Source: Candidatus Enterovibrio altilux (GTDB lineage Bacteria > Pseudomonadota > Gammaproteobacteria > Enterobacterales > Vibrionaceae). From it: DNA of 64,000 nt. The notes beneath the pieces were generated by a model that worked only from the letters and a program-made list of their open reading frames with translations, searched no databases and had not been told where the DNA came from. The position numbers and the translations under genes are program-made. Where the stretch lies: NCBI RefSeq assembly GCF_002381345.1, contig NZ_CP020660.1, positions 496,001-560,000 of the forward strand. The letters run 5' to 3'. This document shows, piece by piece, positions 11,331 to 63,260 of the stretch (position 1 is the first letter of the stretch; every line of letters begins with the position of its first letter).

Positions 11331-12442
11331 TTAGACTAGTCAGCTTCTCTAACACTTTTATTGTAGCGTTAGTTTCGATAATTTAAGCAGTGTAGTCCCT
11401 TAAGCAATGCCCCTCTCAGAAGTTTTCGATTCGAAACATTGTAGTCTTTGATAGGAAACGTTTATGGTAATCATACCTCATTTTTTTAATGCTGATTTGC
11501 ACCGTATAACTGCTGGTAATTGACCGCTAAATTACGTAGATACTCTCATTTTTAAAAATTATTCATTTTTTTAGTGGGATGAAAAGAACCGCTCGTTTAA
11601 TACGAGCGGTTTCGTAACATGCCTGGCGTCGTAAGCACCATAGCCGGATATTTCATTGATTTCTCGGCGGATCTGTTTAAGAAGTTAGATAACACTTCAT
11701 CGTCAGTCACGTTTGATGCACTTAACTCAGCAGCAATTATTTCATGCGTATTTATATCTACCGCTAAGTGAAACTTGTGCCAGACCCGCCGTTTTCCATC
11801 AATACCATGCTTTTTTACTTTTCATTATCATTCACCGTCGACTTTGAACCCCGTAGAATAATGATTAAGTTCTAGATACTTTCTTTATTTTTTGTTTTAC
11901 ACATGACATTAACCATTTGGGCTCGCTTACTAATGAATAAATAGTGAGGGCATGACAACAGCAGTTGAATAAATTTAAAAACTGCATTAATGAATCCTTG
12001 CAGACTTCTCAGTGGCATTGAAAATACGCATTTAACCACAAAATTAGTTGAAATAGCTAAGTCGCTAAATAAACGAAGTCTCTCATGATTAGCCGGCTTA
12101 GTGTGATATCGATTAGTTATTTTGTAGCGAAGATTATTCATAGGCCAGAATATTTACGTGAGCTTGGATGTTTAAAGTTTTGACTAAAAATTTAGTTTCC
12201 TGATTTAGGAAATAAACCCGATTACCATAAACGTTCCATAACAGAGACATCAATGATTTAAATAAAAAAGTTACTGATAGGAACATTGAGCCTAAGGGAA
12301 CACACAACTCAAATTAGCGAAACTTACGCGCTAATAAAAGCGTTCAATAAGCTAAGAGGGCTAAGTATGCCTAACATGAACATGCTCGCCTAATGGTACA
12401 TTATGTTGAGATTTGCTATTTAAACTCAGATTAAAAAAATCA
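11331..12442 (-). mobile_element. Chimeric IS5-family unit, decayed
   Basis: 11331-12219 is a minus-strand copy that lacks its extreme right end. Its transposase N-terminus is legible ('MNNLRYKITN', 'LRLFSDLAIS', 'VFSMPLRSLQGFI'), and a deletion removes about 80 bases near 12105. At 12219/12220 the left end joins gattaccataaacgttcc, the 3' transposase fragment in plus orientation, which runs to about 12442. Confidence 0.85.
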
Positions 12443-12590
12443 AGTTGTTCAAAAACTAATGCTAGAAGTGAGACAATACTCTCTTGCATTATTACGTAAG
12501 GCATACTGGCATTAACCTTGCTAATTCTATTTTTTGTTATTTTCATATTTTCTTCAAAGAAGACGATGAAGACTTGCATGAATATTTTAG

Positions 12591-12603: not shown

Positions 12604-13617
12604 GTGTGGAAAAGTAAAAAAATTTGGCTCGTATTAGATAGTCAAGGTTTTGGTGGTATTGAGTCACACGTTGAACAACTAATGCTAGGTTTGTTGAGCA
12701 CACGAAATTACGTTAACGTTGTATTTCTTAAGAGCTACGGTGAGCACCCACTACAACGTCGTTTGTTATTTTCAAACCTAAATTGCACCATACTTGACGG
12801 ACGCATAACTTCTTTGTGGCGCGCACTGAAAAAAGATAAACCCGACATTATCCATACACATGGGTATAAAGCGGGCATTATCGTTCGCCCTATTGCTCGC
12901 TTCATGGCTATTTCCTGTGCAAGCACATTTCATAGCGGCGAAAAAAAAGACGGACGAATACAGCTGTATGATTGGTTTGACCGCTACACAGCATTTCTCG
13001 CCCATCATGTCTATGCCGTAAACACATCTATCCTATCAACGCTGCCATGCAAAGCTACACTTGCCGATAACTTCATAGATACTCATGCACTTTCGCAATC
13101 ACACGGACAACAAATCGCTTTCGTTGGACGGTTGAATAAAGAAAAGGCTCCCGAACGTTTCATCAACTTAGCAAAATACTTCCCTTGTCTTGATCTTCAT
13201 CTTTATGGCGATGGCCCAATGCGAAAACAATTAGAGAAGAAAGCTCCTGATAATATTGTTTTTCACGGGGTACAGAGAGAAATGCACAATATATGGCCTA
13301 AAATTGGTTTACTGATTCTTCCTTCTCGAGCTGAGGGACTCCCTATGGTATGCTTAGAAGCAATGGCAAGAGGGATCCCTGTTATTACATTTAATGTCGG
13401 TGCATTGAATAAACTTATTTTTCATGAACAAAATGGATGGATTTTTACAGAAGGAGACCTTGAAAGCATGACGTCGGCTATCCAAACCTGGCGCGAGAGT
13501 GACCCTGCCCAAAAAGCAAAATGGAGTAATGCAGCAATTTTAACTATCAAGCAACATTATTCCACAGAAAAAGTAATGCCTAAATTACTTGAAAATTATG
13601 CAACTTTTGCAAAATGA
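12604..13617 (+). CDS. GT4-family glycosyltransferase
   Basis: Retaining GT-B glycosyltransferase, 337 residues, probably adding a sugar to a lipid-linked surface glycan at the cytoplasmic face. The N-terminal acceptor domain begins KIWLVLDSQGFGGIESHVEQL, the usual 'GG.E.h' loop. The donor domain begins IAFVGRLNKEKAPERFI, followed by HLYGDGPMRKQLE. The GT4 EX7E region is present as SRAEGLPMVCLEAMARGIPVI. The start is GTG 12604 with a strong ribosome site. It lies upstream of five further glycan genes and one substrate gene in the same direction, separated from the next by 189 bases that may hold a second promoter. Donor and acceptor sugars cannot be told from sequence. Confidence 0.88.
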   Translation: MWKSKKIWLVLDSQGFGGIESHVEQLMLGLLSTRNYVNVVFLKSYGEHPLQRRLLFSNLNCTILDGRITSLWRALKKDKPDIIHTHGYKAGIIVRPIARFMAISCASTFHSGEKKDGRIQLYDWFDRYTAFLAHHVYAVNTSILSTLPCKATLADNFIDTHALSQSHGQQIAFVGRLNKEKAPERFINLAKYFPCLDLHLYGDGPMRKQLEKKAPDNIVFHGVQREMHNIWPKIGLLILPSRAEGLPMVCLEAMARGIPVITFNVGALNKLIFHEQNGWIFTEGDLESMTSAIQTWRESDPAQKAKWSNAAILTIKQHYSTEKVMPKLLENYATFAK

Positions 13618-13806
13618 CATAATCCATTTCTCATATTGAAACACTCATACGAGTATTAGTTACTTTCAAATAACCGCTTATGCAAAAATAATTTCTTATT
13701 CAATGTATTATAAAAATGGCGCGTTACTTGCAATGCCAAGATAAAGGAAACGTTCATATTAATGTAGCAACCTAATTAACCCATCAGCGAACAGGAGAAA
13801 GAGAGT

Positions 13807-15084
13807 ATGACGTCTGTTAATTTTCTTCTTTCTACATCGCATAATGTGCTATTTGTGCACTATGGCGACAATTGGATTCGTGGTAGCGAACGTTGTCTTA
13901 TAGATCTGCTAACGCACATCAATAAAGACATATTTACACCTGTACTTTGGTGTAACAGTGACATGCTTGCGTTCGCAGTGAGAAAATTAAATATCAGGGT
14001 GTACGTTAGTGAATTCACATTGTTATTTGGAGAGCAAACGCCTCAATATAATTTCACAGGTTACAAAAAATCAATCCACCAAGGCTTAGACATTGTAGAC
14101 CATCATCAGATTGATCTTATCCATTCAAATAGCGGCGCACCAAGCCAGTGGTTGAATCTTGTTGCTCGTGCAAGAAAGTTACCATTAGTACTCCACTTGC
14201 ATGCTCGATATCCATTACGCGACCGCATCACTCTCGGCCTTCATCATGCAAGTATGGCCGTTGGTGTAAGTCAGCCAGTAGTTGACCAACTGCTAAATGA
14301 CGGCGTGAAAAAAACACGCTGTCAGGTCATTCCCAACGGCATAGATACTGTGACGTTACTAGCACAATCTATCATCGATCTACGCAAAATGCTGTCTCTA
14401 CCAAGTGAGGCATTTATTGCTGTCAGCATTTGTTCATTAATTACACGTAAAGGTGTCGACCTTTTGATTGAAGCGTGCAGACAGCTGCGTGGTCTGTATT
14501 TGCCGATTCATATGGTGATCATTGGCGATGGTCCAGAACGGGCAAATTTAGAAATGCAGATTCATAGAGCGCACTTAAAAAATTACGTACATTTAATTGG
14601 CGAACAACACCACGTCGTGGGTCTAATGCGTGGTGGCGCTGACATCTTCGTCTCTGGTGCTCGTGAAGAGGTTTTTGGTTTAACACTTGCAGAGGCGGGT
14701 CTCGCAAGATTACCAGTTGTGGCCCCCAACGTAGGTGGTATACCTACCGTCATTAACCATAATCACACTGGTTTGCTGGTACGCACAGAAAATCCACGTG
14801 CAATTGCACAGGCAATATATTACTTATTTTCGAACCGAAAGGAACGCATTAAGATGGGAGATAATGGGGCCCGCCATGTGATGAAATACTTCACTATTTC
14901 TTCGCACACGGCGAAATTTGAGTTGCTTTATAGCACTTTAATTATGGATCCTACAATGCCGGTAAAATGGCTCAGTCACTGGCAAATACTGCCACCGCTA
15001 CAAGCCTCTCTCAAATTTATTAAGCAATATAAGTGGATGTCTTCTAGCATGAATTCACTTACGTCATACAACGAGGTGCTATGA
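13807..15084 (+). CDS. GT4-family glycosyltransferase
   Basis: A second GT-B enzyme, 425 residues. The acceptor domain opens VLFVHYGDNWIRGSERCLIDLL. The donor domain holds CSLITRKGVDLLIEACRQL and VIIGDGPERANLE, and the EX7E motif is in GAREEVFGLTLAEAGLARLPVVA. About 40 residues beyond the usual C-terminus may contact the membrane. ATG 13807 is preceded by CAGGAGAAAGAGAG. Its stop overlaps the next start by four bases (ATGA at 15081), indicating translational coupling. It is the first gene of a tightly overlapping six-gene run that ends in the secreted DUF4114 protein. The specific sugar is unknown. Confidence 0.88.
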   Translation: MTSVNFLLSTSHNVLFVHYGDNWIRGSERCLIDLLTHINKDIFTPVLWCNSDMLAFAVRKLNIRVYVSEFTLLFGEQTPQYNFTGYKKSIHQGLDIVDHHQIDLIHSNSGAPSQWLNLVARARKLPLVLHLHARYPLRDRITLGLHHASMAVGVSQPVVDQLLNDGVKKTRCQVIPNGIDTVTLLAQSIIDLRKMLSLPSEAFIAVSICSLITRKGVDLLIEACRQLRGLYLPIHMVIIGDGPERANLEMQIHRAHLKNYVHLIGEQHHVVGLMRGGADIFVSGAREEVFGLTLAEAGLARLPVVAPNVGGIPTVINHNHTGLLVRTENPRAIAQAIYYLFSNRKERIKMGDNGARHVMKYFTISSHTAKFELLYSTLIMDPTMPVKWLSHWQILPPLQASLKFIKQYKWMSSSMNSLTSYNEVL

Positions 15085-16223
15085 ATAGACTGACACACAT
15101 TATCATCCTTGACCCAGTAGCCTTTGCTGGGGGATCAAAAATATCAACCAAACATGTGTTGAGTCAGTTAAAAAGTCAAGACACTCGTGTGACAATTTTA
15201 ACAGCTGATCCAGCAAGTTGGTCTTCGTCTCAAGCATACATTACTCGTCTGCGTATGCCTCAACTATTAAAAAAAGCCGAACAAGGTATGATGTATTTTG
15301 CTCGCCATCTACTGATTGCAATACAGCTACTTTGGCTTCGTCTCTTTGTTGGCCAAATACACACGGCACTCGGTGCATCAGGCCCTGGTGTCGATTTAGC
15401 ATTGTACTTAGTTAAACCTCTGCTAAGTTTTCGTGTAGTACAAATGGTTCATGGTCCAGTAGCACCATCACGCACTATTGGACGATGCTTCATTGCTGCA
15501 AACAGCGTATTTTATCTTGATTCAACACAAAAATCATTATCTTCAGCACTAAATGCCGCTGGCTATCCAAATGATGTTGACACACATTCACATATACAGA
15601 CATTTAGGAATGGCCTGCCTAAGCAATCATGGCCGAGTCAATGTCAATATAACTATTCAGTCATGTTTTGGGCAGCATCGCTATTGAAATGGAAAGGATT
15701 AGATACATTCATGGCAGCACTTAGCCAGTTTCCTTCGTCAAAACGCCCAGAAACCCACATTTGCTATATTCGCCCACAGCAAAATAATTTAGCAATAAGT
15801 GGCGCACCCCAACCGTTGAACAAAGTATTTTGGCACCACTCGCCGGCAAACCTTGATGAGATTCGTGCTCGCGCCAACATATTTGTGTCAACCAGCATTC
15901 AAGAGCCCTTTGGCCTGTCTATTCTAGAAGCGATGGCAGCCGGCATGTGCGTAATTATTCCTGCCGACGGCGCATTTTGGGATAAGCAACTTACCGAAAA
16001 CATTAATTGTTTGAAGTACTATCCTAACGACATTAACAGTCTTTCTACCATCATGATGATGGCTCATAGCAATATTCAAGACGTTAAAACAATAGGCCGA
16101 GCAGCCTGTAAGGTTGCGCATCAATATGACACTGATCATTGTTTTATGACAATATGTGAACATCTAGTCGCTAAGCAAATTGCTGTATTAACAACACCTC
16201 CACAAAAAGAAATACAGAGATGA
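15081..16223 (+). CDS. GT4-family glycosyltransferase
   Basis: A third GT-B enzyme of 380 residues. The N-terminus (HIIILDPVAFAGGSKISTKHVL) has the glycine loop of the acceptor domain. A hydrophobic segment near residues 70-95 (MMYFARHLLIAIQLLWLRLF) suggests membrane association. The donor half contains FWAASLLKWKGLDTFMAAL and the EX7E-like STSIQEPFGLSILEAMAAGMCVI. It overlaps its neighbours by four bases on both sides. With the two other transferases it could build a short repeat unit that the following flippase exports. Family assignment is good; substrate is unknown. Confidence 0.85.
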   Translation: MNRLTHIIILDPVAFAGGSKISTKHVLSQLKSQDTRVTILTADPASWSSSQAYITRLRMPQLLKKAEQGMMYFARHLLIAIQLLWLRLFVGQIHTALGASGPGVDLALYLVKPLLSFRVVQMVHGPVAPSRTIGRCFIAANSVFYLDSTQKSLSSALNAAGYPNDVDTHSHIQTFRNGLPKQSWPSQCQYNYSVMFWAASLLKWKGLDTFMAALSQFPSSKRPETHICYIRPQQNNLAISGAPQPLNKVFWHHSPANLDEIRARANIFVSTSIQEPFGLSILEAMAAGMCVIIPADGAFWDKQLTENINCLKYYPNDINSLSTIMMMAHSNIQDVKTIGRAACKVAHQYDTDHCFMTICEHLVAKQIAVLTTPPQKEIQR

Positions 16224-17644
16224 AAGGCCTATCACCTGTGCTCAAACAAACGCTGCTTTATGGTAGCAGTATCGTACTAATGAAAGGGATTTCCTTGTTG
16301 ATGTTACCTTTCATTACGCATCATTTACCACAGGCAGAGTTCGGTCAATTAGAAATTATAAGCAGTATTGCAGCTCTAGGCAGTGTTGTAGTAGGTCTAG
16401 GCTTAGAAGATGCCATGTACCGTTTCATTGGTGCTGACTATGACAAAGAAAAAAGAAAACGCAATTCCGCACGTATTTTCACTCTTACCTTACTTATCGG
16501 GGTTGTCGTGATCCCAAGCGGATGGGTACTTGCTGAATGGTTAGATGCTTACGTCCCCGGAGGTTTAAGTACTTATCAACTTCGCCTCGTGTTACTCATG
16601 CTCGCATTGGAAGGTTGCATTGCAGTACCACTGGGCTGGCTACGCATGCAAAATCGCGCCTACACATTTTTTTCAATGGCCGTCGGCCGTGCTTTTTTTC
16701 ACGCAGGCCTCACCGTTGCGATGTTATTCATGGACCGTGGTATTGATGGCATACTAGAAGCGAGTGTAATTGCCGCCATAACGCAAGCCATTATCCTCAC
16801 AGCTCTGCAAGCAAAAGACACCGGATTCGGATTTTCCGCTAGTCTCACGAAGCAATCTCTTATCTATAGCCTCCCCATCATGGCAAGTGGCTTGATGGCA
16901 TTCTCACTGAACGGTTTAGATCGTTGGGTATTGGCAGAAGTGAGCTCATTAAAAAGCGTTGCACAGTTCGGTGTTGCCGCGAAATTTGCTCTCGTCGTTG
17001 TGCTATTACTGCAACCATTCAGTATGTGGTGGATGCCAAAACGCTTTGACATCCTTTATAGTGTCGATGGTCGCGCGCACGCAATGCGTTTTACTTGCTA
17101 TGGTTTGATAGTGGTTATGATCATTGCTGTTGTCGTTGCAATATTAGCCCCAATAGCCATTCGTTTCCTCTTGCCAGAAAGCTATATGCTTGCTGCACAG
17201 TTCACCGCATTACTCATTGCGGCCGCATTGTTTAAGGAGATGTCCGAATTACTTAATCTTGGTAGTTTTGCAGGTGAGACGTCCTACGCACAACTTGCTA
17301 TTAATACCATATCTGCAGTCATCGCACTCAGCACTCTTTGGTGGTGGGGTAACATGTACGGTGTTTATGGCATATTGTTAGCATTAGCCTTTACGCAAGG
17401 TCTAAGAATGATACTGTTCTTTTTCATTAGTCAATCTCTATACTACCTTCCGTATCCAAAATTTGCATTAATTTTAACCACTAGTCTTTGTTTAGTTTGG
17501 TTAACAATAAGCCAATATGAATTGTCTATTACGCAATGTTTTATATTTTTAATTACGGCCCCGTTAACGCTTATTTTGCTTGCACAAAAACTCAATCTCA
17601 TTCCTCGAACAAACTATTTTAAGTTGAAGGAATTAGCAGCATGA
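16220..17644 (+). CDS. Wzx-like polysaccharide flippase
   Basis: A 474-residue polytopic membrane protein of the MOP (multidrug/oligosaccharidyl-lipid/polysaccharide) exporter superfamily. It probably flips undecaprenyl-linked oligosaccharide to the periplasm. The opening (LLYGSSIVLMKGISLLMLPF) and the segment THHLPQAEFGQLEIISSIA are typical of Wzx and RfbX proteins. Twelve to fourteen hydrophobic segments can be counted. Four-base overlaps with the genes on both sides point to one transcript. No Wzy-type polymerase is evident in the operon, so the product may be a single-unit glycan, or polymerisation may be encoded elsewhere. Confidence 0.87.
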   Translation: MKGLSPVLKQTLLYGSSIVLMKGISLLMLPFITHHLPQAEFGQLEIISSIAALGSVVVGLGLEDAMYRFIGADYDKEKRKRNSARIFTLTLLIGVVVIPSGWVLAEWLDAYVPGGLSTYQLRLVLLMLALEGCIAVPLGWLRMQNRAYTFFSMAVGRAFFHAGLTVAMLFMDRGIDGILEASVIAAITQAIILTALQAKDTGFGFSASLTKQSLIYSLPIMASGLMAFSLNGLDRWVLAEVSSLKSVAQFGVAAKFALVVVLLLQPFSMWWMPKRFDILYSVDGRAHAMRFTCYGLIVVMIIAVVVAILAPIAIRFLLPESYMLAAQFTALLIAAALFKEMSELLNLGSFAGETSYAQLAINTISAVIALSTLWWWGNMYGVYGILLALAFTQGLRMILFFFISQSLYYLPYPKFALILTTSLCLVWLTISQYELSITQCFIFLITAPLTLILLAQKLNLIPRTNYFKLKELAA

Positions 17645-18498
17645 ATGCCATCTTGATGTTGACTATCACCACATCCCTTAAAATACTCCACTGGTTTTCC
17701 GCACCTAGCCTGCAAAGGTTAGCTTTTGTGATACTCACAGGTATAGCCACATCTCTGTGGCTGTCATTCTATTCTGGCGAAGCACCAACTGTTGCAGAGT
17801 TTGACGCAATACCCACCATACTTTGTATCGGGTTAGGTCTTATCTTGCTGCTAAAAAGTAAACTTATATTCTCGCAAATTTCTGACAATCTGTTCGTCAT
17901 CGCCATCGCTATCCTATTGACATTCCCTAGCTTTCAAAGCACGCTGCTTTCGCTACTGCTCCTCGCTATATTGATTGGCTTACGAAGTTCTAACAAAAAC
18001 ATACCCCTCCGTACATGCGCACTCATCCTTTGCGTCTGTGCAATACAGGCATTAACTGTGTTCTATACCTTAAAGTGGTTCACCGAACCGGTGCTCGCTA
18101 TTGATGCTAGCTTAGTTGCATCTATTCTGTCGCTAGCTACTGGTTATGGCTATGCCATAGAAAATGTGTATTTTGGCCCATCCGATCATCAGGTACTAAT
18201 GCTTCGAAACTGCTCGTCATTACCTGCATTGCTCAGTGCATTTACCTGCTGGTTTGCTATCGCTCGCTGGCATAATATATCGTTTTCATCCCGAGAATGC
18301 ATAGTTATCAGTGCATTACTGGTATGTTCTCTTGGACTCAATCTTCTCCGCCTATTCAGCATGGGGTTAACCATGCAATGGCACGCATGGTGGCACTCTC
18401 CCGAAGGAGAAAATACTTATTTATTTACCTCTTCAGCATTAACTCTATCAATCATCTTCTGGGGGGTGCATTATGCAAAAACAGAACACACTCGTTGA
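17641..18498 (+). CDS. Exosortase-like transpeptidase, divergent
   Basis: A 285-residue protein with about eight membrane segments, which I read as an exosortase. The three family hallmarks occur in order near the C-terminus: Cys191 in LRNCSSLPALL, Arg237 in LNLLRLFSMGL, and His252 in AWWHSPEG. Exosortases cut the PEP-CTERM tail of secreted proteins at the inner membrane and are thought to link them to a glycolipid. The usual Gly two residues after the catalytic Cys is Ser here. Context strongly supports the call: it sits after glycosyltransferases and a flippase, and two genes before a secreted protein with a PEP-CTERM-like tail. I cannot assign a named exosortase subfamily. Confidence 0.78.
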   Translation: MNAILMLTITTSLKILHWFSAPSLQRLAFVILTGIATSLWLSFYSGEAPTVAEFDAIPTILCIGLGLILLLKSKLIFSQISDNLFVIAIAILLTFPSFQSTLLSLLLLAILIGLRSSNKNIPLRTCALILCVCAIQALTVFYTLKWFTEPVLAIDASLVASILSLATGYGYAIENVYFGPSDHQVLMLRNCSSLPALLSAFTCWFAIARWHNISFSSRECIVISALLVCSLGLNLLRLFSMGLTMQWHAWWHSPEGENTYLFTSSALTLSIIFWGVHYAKTEHTR

Positions 18499-19006
18499 TT
18501 GGTTAAGCTTGTCACTCTTGTTAGCTCTAGTTACTGGTGGTCTTTCACTTCGCACACAAAGTGCATCACCAACTCAAGGCATTTATAAACACGGTTCTGC
18601 CGAAAAACAATTGATAGAGTTTTTGCGTTTCCACGGCTTTACGAACATTAAATCAATATCTTTCACTGAAGATGCTGGTGTTAAAGGTTTACAAGTTTCT
18701 ATACCTACCTGCAATGGCTATCTTGTTATGTTAGTTATGCCAGATGGCGATGAGTTTTCGGGCTTATGGAAAACACTCGCGTTACACAATCAATACACAA
18801 CTAGATACCTTTTTGACGGGACTTTATACACTGAGTTCCCCCGAACATTATTTTGGTTTACAACAATGCTGCATGCGCTTGCTATAAAAATTGGACTTCA
18901 GTCTGTATTTTATCCTGGTCCTGCGCTCGCTATTGCTCATCCTGAGCATTGTAAAGATATTAACCAAATTTTTTTCAATAAAATTATGCTAAAAAGGAGA
19001 CTCTAA
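18473..19006 (+). CDS. Membrane-anchored protein of unknown function beside the exosortase
   Basis: A 177-residue protein that I do not recognise. It has one N-terminal membrane segment (about residues 10-28, LSLSLLLALVTGGLSL) and then a soluble, probably periplasmic domain. The region around residues 67-90 contains a cysteine and IPTCNGYLVMLVMPDGDEF, and the C-terminus has FPRTLFWFTTMLHALAIK. Its start lies 26 bases inside the exosortase gene, with GGGGGTG upstream, and its stop overlaps the start of the substrate gene (TAATG). Its position resembles EpsI-type accessory genes next to exosortases, but I see no EpsI signature. An accessory role in sorting or glycan attachment is inference. Confidence 0.7.
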   Translation: MQKQNTLVDWLSLSLLLALVTGGLSLRTQSASPTQGIYKHGSAEKQLIEFLRFHGFTNIKSISFTEDAGVKGLQVSIPTCNGYLVMLVMPDGDEFSGLWKTLALHNQYTTRYLFDGTLYTEFPRTLFWFTTMLHALAIKIGLQSVFYPGPALAIAHPEHCKDINQIFFNKIMLKRRL

Positions 19007-19950
19007 TGAAGAACATGATTAACACTATTATCGGAACATTCTTAATATGCAGCACATCTGCAGCTTATGCATTAATCGCAAATTCACCTACCATCATAAA
19101 CAACACTGTTGACTCCGCATTGATAAATCTCGCGGAGACAACATTACCTGAATCGACGACTGCTAATCCTGAGTTTCTTAATACAGATTACGACCCTTAC
19201 CTTTCATTACATCATAATGCAAACGTATACGTTAGCTTCCTGGACGAAGGAGCAGGTTATAAAAACAGTCTAGGTTATTTCACCTTCAACGATGATACGT
19301 TTTCAGGCTTAAACAAAGGCAGTATAGATACTGACAGCTCAGGTGTTGTTTCGCTGTCTGAACTCGGCGCTGTTGAGGGCATTGAATACGGGTTCTTATT
19401 TGCAAATCTGTCTAAATCAGGCAGCGGAGGCAGCTTGTTGACAGGTGACACCGTGCAGGTTGGTGATTCAGCAATAGCATTAGAAAAGAATGTTAGTTTC
19501 TTCCTATCTCAAAACTCCTATGCAGGAGGAGATACTGTTTCTGACGGCATCTTAACGGGTACGGATCAAACTTTCTATGGTTTAGATTTTTTGAATCCTG
19601 AGGCAGATTTTACCTATGAAAATGGTAGTTCAAGTGCTACATCTCGTCATGTTGCCATGTTGTTCACTGATAATAATGAAGAGCAAGTCATCATGGGGTT
19701 TGAAGATCTCAATCGTGTTAATCCTAGCAGTAATGACTGGAGTATACCATCTGATGAAGACTTTAATGACGCAATATTCATGGTGTACAGTGATCCCGTA
19801 GATGCGTTTAGTAATTCAAACATTGCTACAGCCCCTCTACCACCCATGGCACAAAGCCTTTTTGGACTCATGATGTGTGCAGGTTTAATTTTGATTACAC
19901 AAAAAAATTCTATACTTATTCCTCTTAAAAATACAAATTTAAGCACCTGA
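19006..19950 (+). CDS. Secreted DUF4114-type protein with PEP-CTERM-like sorting tail
   Basis: A 314-residue precursor with a signal peptide (about residues 1-22, ending SAAYA). The central region resembles DUF4114: FLDEGAGYKNSLGYFTF near the start and VIMGFEDLNR...DEDFNDAIF near the end. The C-terminus has the three parts of an exosortase signal: a proline motif (APLPP, residues 276-280), a hydrophobic stretch (LFGLMMCAGLILIT) and a short polar or basic run (QKNS). It is therefore the likely dedicated substrate of the exosortase two genes upstream. The last few codons lie within an IS630-like remnant, so the tail after the membrane segment may have been altered. Surface or matrix location is inferred. 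Confidence 0.78.
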   Translation: MKNMINTIIGTFLICSTSAAYALIANSPTIINNTVDSALINLAETTLPESTTANPEFLNTDYDPYLSLHHNANVYVSFLDEGAGYKNSLGYFTFNDDTFSGLNKGSIDTDSSGVVSLSELGAVEGIEYGFLFANLSKSGSGGSLLTGDTVQVGDSAIALEKNVSFFLSQNSYAGGDTVSDGILTGTDQTFYGLDFLNPEADFTYENGSSSATSRHVAMLFTDNNEEQVIMGFEDLNRVNPSSNDWSIPSDEDFNDAIFMVYSDPVDAFSNSNIATAPLPPMAQSLFGLMMCAGLILITQKNSILIPLKNTNLST

Positions 19951-20198: not shown

Positions 20199-21460
20199 GG
20201 CTTTATTCCCTGATTCGAGTTCAGATAGCAGATTCCAAAATAATCAACTATTAGACAATTGCTTTCATTTTAAACAGACCTAACTTTATCGATTTTTAAC
20301 ACTTTTATCATGCCGTAGGTTTTACCAATCTGGGCATGATGATCCCTTAAGTTCAATGTCCCTCCGAGAAGTTTTTTGACTCGAACTATCGCTGTCTTTG
20401 CAAGGGAACATTAACAGCAGCGACTTTATTTCCTAAACCAGGGAACTAAATAATCAACCTATGCTCTAAACAGCTAGGCTAACTTAAATATCCAAGTCTA
20501 TGAACAGGATGCGCTACAAAACAACCAACTGAAAGCAGTATAATCAAGCTTTAATTAATCTTGGCTTGCTAACATTCTGTATTGATAAAGAAGTCATTCA
20601 ACTATGGCATCAAACTAAGTCCGATAATCATGGAAGAGCTCGTTAATTTACCAACTTGGATATTACGACTGGCCTCATGATTAAACGCATATTTTTAGTG
20701 CCGTTGAGAGGTTTATAAGGATTCATCAATTATGCATTTACACTTGCTTAACCGTCATTATCATACCCTTATTATTCATACATTAGCAAACGAACTCAAA
20801 CGGTGAACATTGCGTTGAAGACGAAAAAATAAAAGAATCATCCAGCACTTAACCATTCATTTTACAGGGTTAAAAGCCTACAGTAAAGGAGCATAACAAG
20901 TAAAAAAACATGCCACTGCCGGTAAACAGAGAGTTTAATAGAAGTTACATTTAGTGGCAGAGATAAATACGCATGTAATCATTGCTGCTGAGTTAAGTGC
21001 ACTCAATGTGACTGGTGGTGTAAGACTACCTAACAGATCCACCGAAAATCAATAAAATATCAGCAGCTAGCGCTTACGACACCAGATAATGTTACGCAAC
21101 CGTTCGTATTAAACAAGCGGTTCCACGCGTCCCACCAAGAAAAGGTATAATTTATTGGGAACGAGATCATCCGCGCAATGTAACAGTCAGTTACCAGCAG
21201 TTATACGGTTCAAATCAACACTGTAAAGCGAAGTATGGTTGCCATAAACGTTCCTATTAGAGACAGTAATGTTTCGAGCCAAGCAACTCTTCGGAGGAAA
21301 GTTGAGCCTCATGAGTTTATAATGCCTAGATTAGCGAAGCCTACGCCATGATAAAAACGTTAATAAGCTAATAGAAATAAGTCTACTTAAAATACAAGCG
21401 TTCGTCTAACAGTTAATCATATTGAAATTTGCTATCTAAGCTCAAATTAAGAATAAAGTT
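20199..21460 (+). mobile_element. Chimeric IS5-family unit, decayed
   Basis: 20199-20421 is the right end and 3' transposase in reverse orientation. It meets the left end of a complete plus-strand copy at 20422 (actttatttcctaaacc), which runs to about 21460. The same junction is seen at 8736 and 57829. The transposase frame is destroyed by many indels. Confidence 0.82.
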
Positions 21461-62705: not shown

Positions 62706-63260
62706 CTAGCTGTTTTTTATTTTGTCGCCAGAACCACTACCAGTGACGGTTTGCATGATTAAAATAAGGTAATTTTTCACAGACATCATCTCAATCATTC
62801 GTCGATCCCACGCAGCAAGTTTTTTTGGTGTAGCCATGTCTATCGCATGGACTTGCGCTAGTCCAGTTATTCCAGGCAAAACATCAAATACACTATTTTT
62901 CTCTCTAGCTTTGATAAGTTCTTTTTGATTAAACAAACAAGGACGAGGTCCAACTAAACTCATATCTCCTTTCAGCACATTAATCAACTGTGGAAGTTCA
63001 TCCAATTTAGTTTTTCGCAAAAACACACCAAATTTAGTGACTGAAGAAGCGCTTGCTAGATGCGTCGCTACTGATGCTGTTTCTGGTGTCATGGTACGAA
63101 ATTTGATGAGCATGAAGGGCTTTTGATTTTTACCCACACGCATTTGACAAAAAATAGGAGATTTAGTGTCAAAATAACTAAGCATAGTAACCAGTAACAA
63201 CACAGGGCACAAAAATAAAAGACCAAACAAGGCAAAAAGAAAATCGAGGTGTCTAATCAC
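62706..63260 (-). CDS. Undecaprenyl-phosphate sugar phosphotransferase (PglC/WcaJ C-terminal type)
   Basis: Initiating transferase of 184 residues that places a sugar-1-phosphate on undecaprenyl phosphate. It has one N-terminal hydrophobic re-entrant segment (LDFLFALFGLLFLCPVLLLV). The family signatures follow: IKFRTM, the RKTKLDELPQLINVLKGDMSLVGPRP block, and PGITGLAQV. Its short length matches the monotopic PglC form rather than WcaJ with five membrane helices. The start is GTG 63260, 20 bases after the epimerase stop, so the two form an operon. It could start the glycan used by the distant exosortase locus, but that is inference. Confidence 0.9.
   Translation of the reverse strand: MIRHLDFLFALFGLLFLCPVLLLVTMLSYFDTKSPIFCQMRVGKNQKPFMLIKFRTMTPETASVATHLASASSVTKFGVFLRKTKLDELPQLINVLKGDMSLVGPRPCLFNQKELIKAREKNSVFDVLPGITGLAQVHAIDMATPKKLAAWDRRMIEMMSVKNYLILIMQTVTGSGSGDKIKNS

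Follow-up and report, generated by a model that had tools for sequence, protein, structure and literature searches.

Two insertion-sequence remnants bound a cassette of seven genes in the 64-kb window, the whole stretch of DNA analyzed here (table 1). The DNA is from Ca. Enterovibrio luxaltus CC26, an anglerfish light-organ bacterium. On re-reading the window, all seven ORFs between 12604 and 19950 are open. A gap of 189 bp parts the first GT4 gene from the other six, which the preliminary description had presented as a chain with overlaps of 1 to 26 bases. The coordinates bear this out, with overlaps of 4 b at 15081/15084, 16220/16223, and 17641/17644, 26 b at 18473/18498, and 1 b at 19006/19006. 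Its family assignments are likewise upheld for the three GT4 enzymes (PF00534/PF13692, E 1e-9 to 2e-33), the flippase, and the DUF4114 protein (PF13448, E 1.6e-6).

Table 1. Features of the cassette and its bounds (window coordinates).
Feature	Coordinates	Strand	Details
Insertion-sequence remnant, left bound of cassette	11339..12438		Repeat recurs many times in the window and at other syp breakpoints
Sigma-54 (-24/-12) promoter-like site TGGCATTAACCTTGCT, upstream of sypH	12507..12522	+	10/12 match
GT4 glycosyltransferase, sypH position	12604..13617	+	PF00534 1.5e-24; 60-69% identity to syntenic orthologs
Second sigma-54 promoter-like site TGGCGCGTTACTTGCA, upstream of sypI	13717..13732	+	11/12 match
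GT4 glycosyltransferase SypI	13807..15084	+	PF00534 2.1e-33; ortholog upstream of sypJ in other Vibrionaceae
GT4 glycosyltransferase SypJ	15081..16223	+	PF00534 3.9e-12
Wzx-like oligosaccharide flippase SypK	16220..17644	+	PF01943 1.9e-14; ortholog flanked by sypJ and sypL in other Vibrionaceae
Divergent exosortase-like membrane protease	17641..18498	+	Cys191, Asn234-x-x-Arg237, His252-x3-Gly256; TIGR04178 in orthologs
177-aa partner	18473..19006	+	N-terminal hydrophobic segment; no known family; always adjoins exosortase-like gene
Secreted DUF4114 protein, putative sole substrate	19006..19950	+	PF13448 above cut-off
PEP-CTERM-like sorting tail SNIATAPLPPMAQSLFGLMMCAGLILITQKNS	19816..19920	+	16/35 tail positions invariant across six sequences
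Insertion-sequence remnant, right bound of cassette	20217..21448		Same repeat family as left remnant

A dispersed syp locus

The cassette opens with four genes of the symbiosis polysaccharide (syp) locus, sypH-I-J-K. The Enterovibrio SypJ ortholog (G059) shares 39-48% identity with sypJ of other Vibrionaceae. Gene order and domains match sypA-R, including the hexapeptide transferase and Bac_transf, and the K-L-M-N order is constant across Vibrionaceae. In two relatives the locus is seen to be contiguous (∼30 kb). Free-living E. norvegicus has the locus in full. The order in free-living relatives is STAS-OmpA-OPX-ATPase-SpoIIE/REC-HK-sigma54 RR-(epimerase)-three GT4-Wzx, followed by Xrt-177aa-DUF4114-acetyltransferase-GT-chain length-p788-GT4-GT2-sugar transferase. 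Presence of syp genes in both anglerfish symbionts has been known since 2019 (eLife; PMC6773444).

The syp locus of Aliivibrio fischeri, together with its rbd/scv/eps homologs, has the same order of sypA-K and M-R and likewise has a sigma-54 regulator, sigma-54-type promoter sites, and genes for Wzx and Wzy_C proteins. The site upstream of sypH is also found ahead of the leading GT4 gene in five further Enterovibrio loci; at its score of 10/12, 1.4 matches per 64 kb are expected by chance. The site upstream of sypI has counterparts in five loci (L002, L003, L004, L017, and L018; 9-11/12), and 0.2 matches per 64 kb are expected by chance at 11/12. The CC26 locus differs from that of A. fischeri and its homologs in being split, by insertion sequences, into separate pieces, with sypA-E and sypG, sypM-R, and, on another contig, sypL all intact elsewhere in the genome. 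Compared with the locus of relatives, everything is intact except the epimerase, a GlmS-like gene, and most of sypF, which has lost its kinase part and encodes an Hpt domain only.

It differs further in the gap between sypK and sypM. In other Vibrionaceae this gap holds sypL, which encodes a 460-aa Wzy_C protein; here sypL is displaced and the genes for the exosortase-like protein, its 177-aa partner, and the DUF4114 protein take its place. This order is kept in 6 of 18 Enterovibrio genomes. The pair of exosortase-like and 177-aa genes also recurs in a syp-type locus of a distant gammaproteobacterium, immediately upstream of a sypL-like gene. The position invites the reading that the exosortase-like protein is a polymerase or ligase in the role of SypL, and a flippase or polymerase role was once suggested for EpsH (PMC1569441). 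But SypL is a separate Wzy_C protein, not a homolog, with a match in 15 of 18 Enterovibrio genomes and an intact copy in CC26 away from the cassette, and the exosortase-like and sypL-like genes adjoin in G392. An invariant Cys/Arg/His triad and a tail-bearing substrate with the same distribution also argue against such a role, which we consider very improbable.

The preliminary description regarded the operon as self-contained, its GT4 enzymes and flippase building a glycan for the exosortase to attach to the DUF4114 protein. The gene overlaps and the single sorting tail per genome would fit such a compact system, and because the exosortase module overlaps the glycan genes, it is probably co-transcribed with them. 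However, the GT4 and flippase genes are sypHIJK, which are present throughout Vibrionaceae in loci without any exosortase, and the genes for glycan polymerase, export, chain length, and priming, along with those for the acetyltransferase and regulators, lie outside the cassette and, sypF excepted, are intact. The operon is a fragment of the syp locus, and a self-contained system is quite improbable.

A divergent exosortase and a single candidate substrate

The window exosortase-like protein has no NCBIfam or Pfam match at E<=1, and PF09721 gives no match. TIGR04178, with a cut-off of 23 bits, matches five of six Enterovibrio members, two of them above that cut-off (24.7 and 23.4 bits). In a 23-sequence alignment with 16 bona fide exosortases, the only invariant columns are C191, S192, N234, R237, H252, and G256. 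The family profile scores 28.0 against exosortases with hhalign, compared with 14.9 ± 2.5 (maximum 21.5) for 60 column-shuffled profiles. The preliminary description had named two outcomes that would refute its reading: absence of a model match, which was found for the window sequence alone, and loss of Cys191, Arg237, and His252 in orthologs, which was not seen, with all three kept in every ortholog. On these comparisons, the assignment of the protein to the exosortase superfamily holds, at superfamily level only, and tail cleavage is predicted. All seven members, G392 among them, have CSS in place of the Cys-Xaa-Gly motif of EpsH proteins and so lack its Gly; we therefore place the protein as a divergent superfamily member rather than with EpsH/XrtA.

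Structure prediction gave a pLDDT of 43 from six sequences and 87 after adding 16 exosortases; the latter indicates consistency only, because an alignment with added exosortases presumes homology. A fold search of the PDB, which holds no related sequence, returned nothing below E 0.001. A possible second exosortase copy at C1:1587899 (E 5.7e-4) proved on inspection to be 49 aa with a stop and no gene, and was treated as a chance match.

The DUF4114 protein is the only copy in the CC26 genome. Its tail is tripartite, with an APLPPMAQ motif, a hydrophobic stretch, and a basic C-terminal end (ARRK in relatives), and the basic cluster is weaker in the window sequence (TQKNS vs. ARRKS). The PEP-CTERM model PF07589 has no match in the genome at E<=10, and APLPP replaces Pro-Glu-Pro. 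Counted by profile only, tails number zero with the Pfam model and exactly one with a profile built on the family's own tail, with one tail per genome. Enzyme, partner, and tail co-occur in the same 6 of 18 Enterovibrio genomes, in keeping with the earlier proposal of one substrate.

Features in common with the EpsH/XrtA system include a multi-pass membrane enzyme with Cys, Asn-x2-Arg, and His-x3-Gly (motifs in PMC1569441), adjoining EPS genes, a sigma-54 regulator, a substrate with signal peptide, Pro-rich motif, helix, and basic end, and a chain-length protein resembling TIGR03007 (237 bits, below the cut-off of 279). In contrast to that system, the enzyme scores below or near all exosortase model cut-offs, EpsI is absent (profile comparison of the 177-aa protein with EpsI gave no match), the tail motif is of PLPP type, and there is one substrate vs. 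a median of eight (PMC1569441). Dedicated single-target pairs of rhombosortase and GlyGly-CTERM proteins (PMC3237569) similarly have enzyme and lone target encoded close together, but the enzyme class is different and the pair here is within a polysaccharide locus. We found no earlier account in the literature of a syp locus with an exosortase. The syp set in this lineage has gained a divergent exosortase and a single target, a module undescribed for such loci.

Selection, proposed mechanism, and implications

Codon patterns show purifying selection on the syp genes and the module. Own-branch change rates at codon positions 1, 2, and 3, which cover the entire branch, its pre-symbiotic period included, are 0.14, 0.06, and 0.49 over 19 syp genes and 0.20, 0.09, and 0.47 in the exosortase-like gene. 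The cassette is intact and under selection, as first proposed. With a broken sypF and an eroding basic cluster in the tail, the module could still be a relic, open but inactive in this reduced symbiont. Against this, the 19 syp genes have no stop codons, constraint at codon positions 1 and 2 is strong, both sigma-54 sites are retained, and the Hpt domain of sypF and its histidine persist in both anglerfish symbionts, making a relic rather unlikely.

The explanation we favor, at roughly three chances in four, is that the cassette is the sypHIJK segment with an inserted sorting module of exosortase, 177-aa partner, and DUF4114 protein, working as a matrix-protein system. A SypG-type regulator, encoded elsewhere, would presumably drive both conserved predicted sigma-54 promoters and turn the cassette on. 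The glycosyltransferases and SypK would make and then flip a lipid-linked repeat unit, to be polymerized and exported by SypL, SypO, and SypC-D, whose genes are elsewhere. The signal peptide would direct the DUF4114 protein across the inner membrane, where the C-terminal helix would hold it until exosortase cleavage at the PLPP-type motif releases or transfers it. The processed protein may then become a matrix component of the exported polysaccharide; in Myxococcus PilY1.1, DUF4114 has been put forward as a module that binds EPS in a Ca-dependent manner (PMC9109919). Judged from sequence features, the module likely serves to cleave the tail from one lectin-like matrix protein, and we infer a role for the partner and a surface location for the product. 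That the acceptor is the syp lipid-linked sugar or exported polymer, such that the DUF4114 protein becomes covalently bound to the symbiosis polysaccharide, is unlikely.

Among the colonization polysaccharides of luminous symbionts, syp is the best studied. A syp locus with a dedicated one-target exosortase provides a minimal test of the relation between exosortases and EPS, a question since 2006, and the presence of this module in free-living Enterovibrio makes the test genetically tractable. The module's survival amid the pseudogenes and insertion sequences of an anglerfish symbiont suggests a role for the matrix protein in locating or retaining the host. If covalent joining were true, a sorting enzyme would make a protein-polysaccharide conjugate for host colonization.

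The cassette as part of a syp locus

The source genome, that of Candidatus Enterovibrio luxaltus CC26, whose host is the anglerfish Cryptopsaras couesii (PMC6020299), has four contigs (2,143,356 bases in total; largest 1,604,691). All seven open reading frames that the preliminary description placed in the cassette were confirmed in position, and its GT4, flippase, and DUF4114 assignments are backed by Pfam. Gene order is conserved; in two free-living relatives, the cassette is syntenic and embedded in a single contiguous 30-kb locus. The first part of this locus encodes STAS, OmpA, polysaccharide export (SLBB/Poly_export), ATPase, and REC/HATPase/SpoIIE proteins, a hybrid kinase with Hpt, and a sigma-54 response regulator. 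The middle encodes an epimerase, three GT4, Wzx, exosortase-like, 177-aa, and DUF4114 proteins, then, in one relative, a GlmS-like protein, and the last part a hexapeptide acetyltransferase, a GT, a chain-length protein, a 788-aa protein, GT4, GT2, and a sugar transferase. Judged from predicted domains, this order is that of the syp (symbiosis polysaccharide) locus, with genes assigned letter by letter after the syp gene order.

The three-gene sorting module (exosortase-like, 177-aa, and DUF4114 genes) is what sets the cassette apart. Other Vibrionaceae have the order sypJ, sypK, a gene for a 460-aa Wzy_C protein (sypL), sypM, and sypN. The sypK-sypM gap of Enterovibrio has three states, empty or occupied by either a GlmS-like gene or the exosortase module, and a sypL match lies away from this gap in 15 of 18 genomes. 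Another Vibrionaceae genome (G193, C3:86000-94000, L147), of 1.1 Mb and thus resembling those of flashlight-fish symbionts in size, has sypJ-K-L-M-N open and in order. A distant gammaproteobacterium (G392) has the association independently: its syp-type locus, with genes for STAS, export, ATPase, SpoIIE, regulator, and kinase proteins, contains an exosortase-like gene together with a counterpart of the 177-aa gene (21% identical); a sypL-like gene follows the pair and the contig stops shortly beyond. The syp genes of anglerfish symbionts were previously reported (PMC6773444). Pairing of an exosortase with symbiosis polysaccharide, Enterovibrio, or sypL is without precedent in the literature searched, most subscription journals being outside it.

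Locations of features (unprefixed, window; C1 and C2, source-genome contigs; L, extracted loci)
Feature	Location	Detail
Insertion-sequence remnant	11339-12438	breakpoint
Predicted sigma-54 -24/-12 site	12507-12522	before sypH
GT4	12604-13617	Pfam
Predicted sigma-54 -24/-12 site	13717-13732	before sypI
GT4	13807-15084	Pfam
GT4	15081-16223	Pfam
Wzx-like flippase	16220-17644	Pfam
Exosortase-like protein	17641-18498	alignment and profile comparison
Protein of no named family	18473-19006	177 aa
DUF4114 protein	19006-19950	Pfam
Insertion-sequence remnant	20217-21448	breakpoint
sypA-E, sypF remnant, sypG	C1:171-180 kb	
sypH-I-J-K, sorting module	window cassette	
sypM-R	C1:918-927 kb	
sypL	C2:238 kb	
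sypF remnant, E. luxaltus (C1)	L075:8005-8457	150 aa, Hpt
sypF remnant, E. escacola	L160:18290-19120	276 aa, REC+Hpt

Dispersal and regulation

In E. luxaltus, the syp locus is scattered over four places, with insertion-sequence remnants of one repeat family at the breakpoints, also inside sypF. The epimerase was not found in this genome at comparable identity. The cassette thus looks compact because the genome broke up around it, not by design; the self-contained system first proposed does not hold, as the remaining syp genes are at three other places. Adjoining the displaced sypL is a DUF3466 protein (L162:10873-12735, minus strand, C2) with a hydrophobic and basic C-terminal tail, GFIGLGLFAFACAFCRKK, possibly a GlyGly-CTERM/rhombosortase-type target, a sorting class other than exosortase. 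At the right window end, a second sugar-transferase-like gene (62706-63260, minus strand), beside a partial sugar epimerase/dehydratase, probably belongs to another surface-polysaccharide locus.

The 18-gene syp locus is controlled by SypG/sigma-54 (PMC8941931). Sigma-54 sites are predicted upstream of sypH and sypI in six of six loci examined; in mononucleotide shuffles of the window, sites scoring at least as high occur 1.4 (sypH site) and 0.2 (sypI site) times per 64 kb, both strands. In the relatives, the best match of the neighboring regulator is LuxO, with a further resemblance to PrsR, a PEP-CTERM regulator; neither score reaches its cut-off. Ca. E. escacola MJ02 (NZ_NBYY01000028.1, L002:680-2110) has a full-length, intact sypG, syntenic with sypH and sharing 79% identity with the E. 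luxaltus gene, whereas sypF and sypG were said to be undetectable in all E. escacola genomes (PMC6773444). The sensor and kinase parts of sypF are gone in both anglerfish symbionts, and an open Hpt frame with its histidine stays beside intact sypG. Because the SypF Hpt domain relays the RscS signal in Vibrio fischeri (PMC5019070), this reduction may be functional trimming.

Exosortase-like protein, putative substrate, and constraint

The earlier exosortase call stands at superfamily level only, on invariant motifs and on matches of orthologues to TIGR04178; a search with the window protein alone gave no hit to any NCBIfam or Pfam model (E<=1). Orthologues are in 6 of 18 Enterovibrio genomes, source included (best identity 64%), and, outside Vibrionaceae, in a single genome (G392, E 8e-21) of a class-wide sample of 369. 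Five of the six Enterovibrio members match TIGR04178, two exceeding the curated cut-off. In an alignment with 16 bona fide exosortases, no columns are invariant but C191, S192, N234, R237, H252, and G256; they include the motifs described by Haft et al. 2006 (PMC1569441), namely Cys, Asn-x-x-Arg, and His-x-x-x-Gly. Every member of this family, G392 included, has Ser in place of the Gly of Cys-Xaa-Gly. Compared with exosortases, the family profile scores 28.0, which lies 5 SD over column-shuffled controls. From these alignments, we read the protein as a divergent superfamily member outside every named subfamily.

Six Enterovibrio genomes, the same six with the exosortase-like and 177-aa genes, each have a single strong match (E<=1.3e-22) to a profile of the DUF4114 protein tail, and none of the 18 has a further match below E 0.008. 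The source-genome tail count is one by this profile and zero by the standard PEP-CTERM model. With DUF4114 occurring once in this genome, this agrees with the single substrate initially suggested, within a profile so narrow that markedly different tails could escape detection.

Codon positions were compared for changes on the E. luxaltus branch at sites where the two free-living relatives agree. Across 19 syp genes, 14%, 6%, and 49% of first, second, and third positions changed, with no stops (exosortase-like gene, 20/9/47%; 177-aa gene, 24/8/50%; DUF4114 gene, 12/7/39%). In contrast, the degenerate sypF stretch has 49/23/67% and one stop. The pattern is constraint, over a branch that includes pre-symbiosis time, and upholds the suggestion that the cassette was kept intact by selection.

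DUF4114 in Myxococcus PilY1.1 is a proposed calcium-dependent EPS-binding module (PMC9109919). The 177-aa protein is a putative partner of the exosortase-like enzyme. Most likely, the putative exosortase would cleave the DUF4114 protein free of its C-terminal anchor, and the freed protein would then accompany the syp polysaccharide and bind to it.
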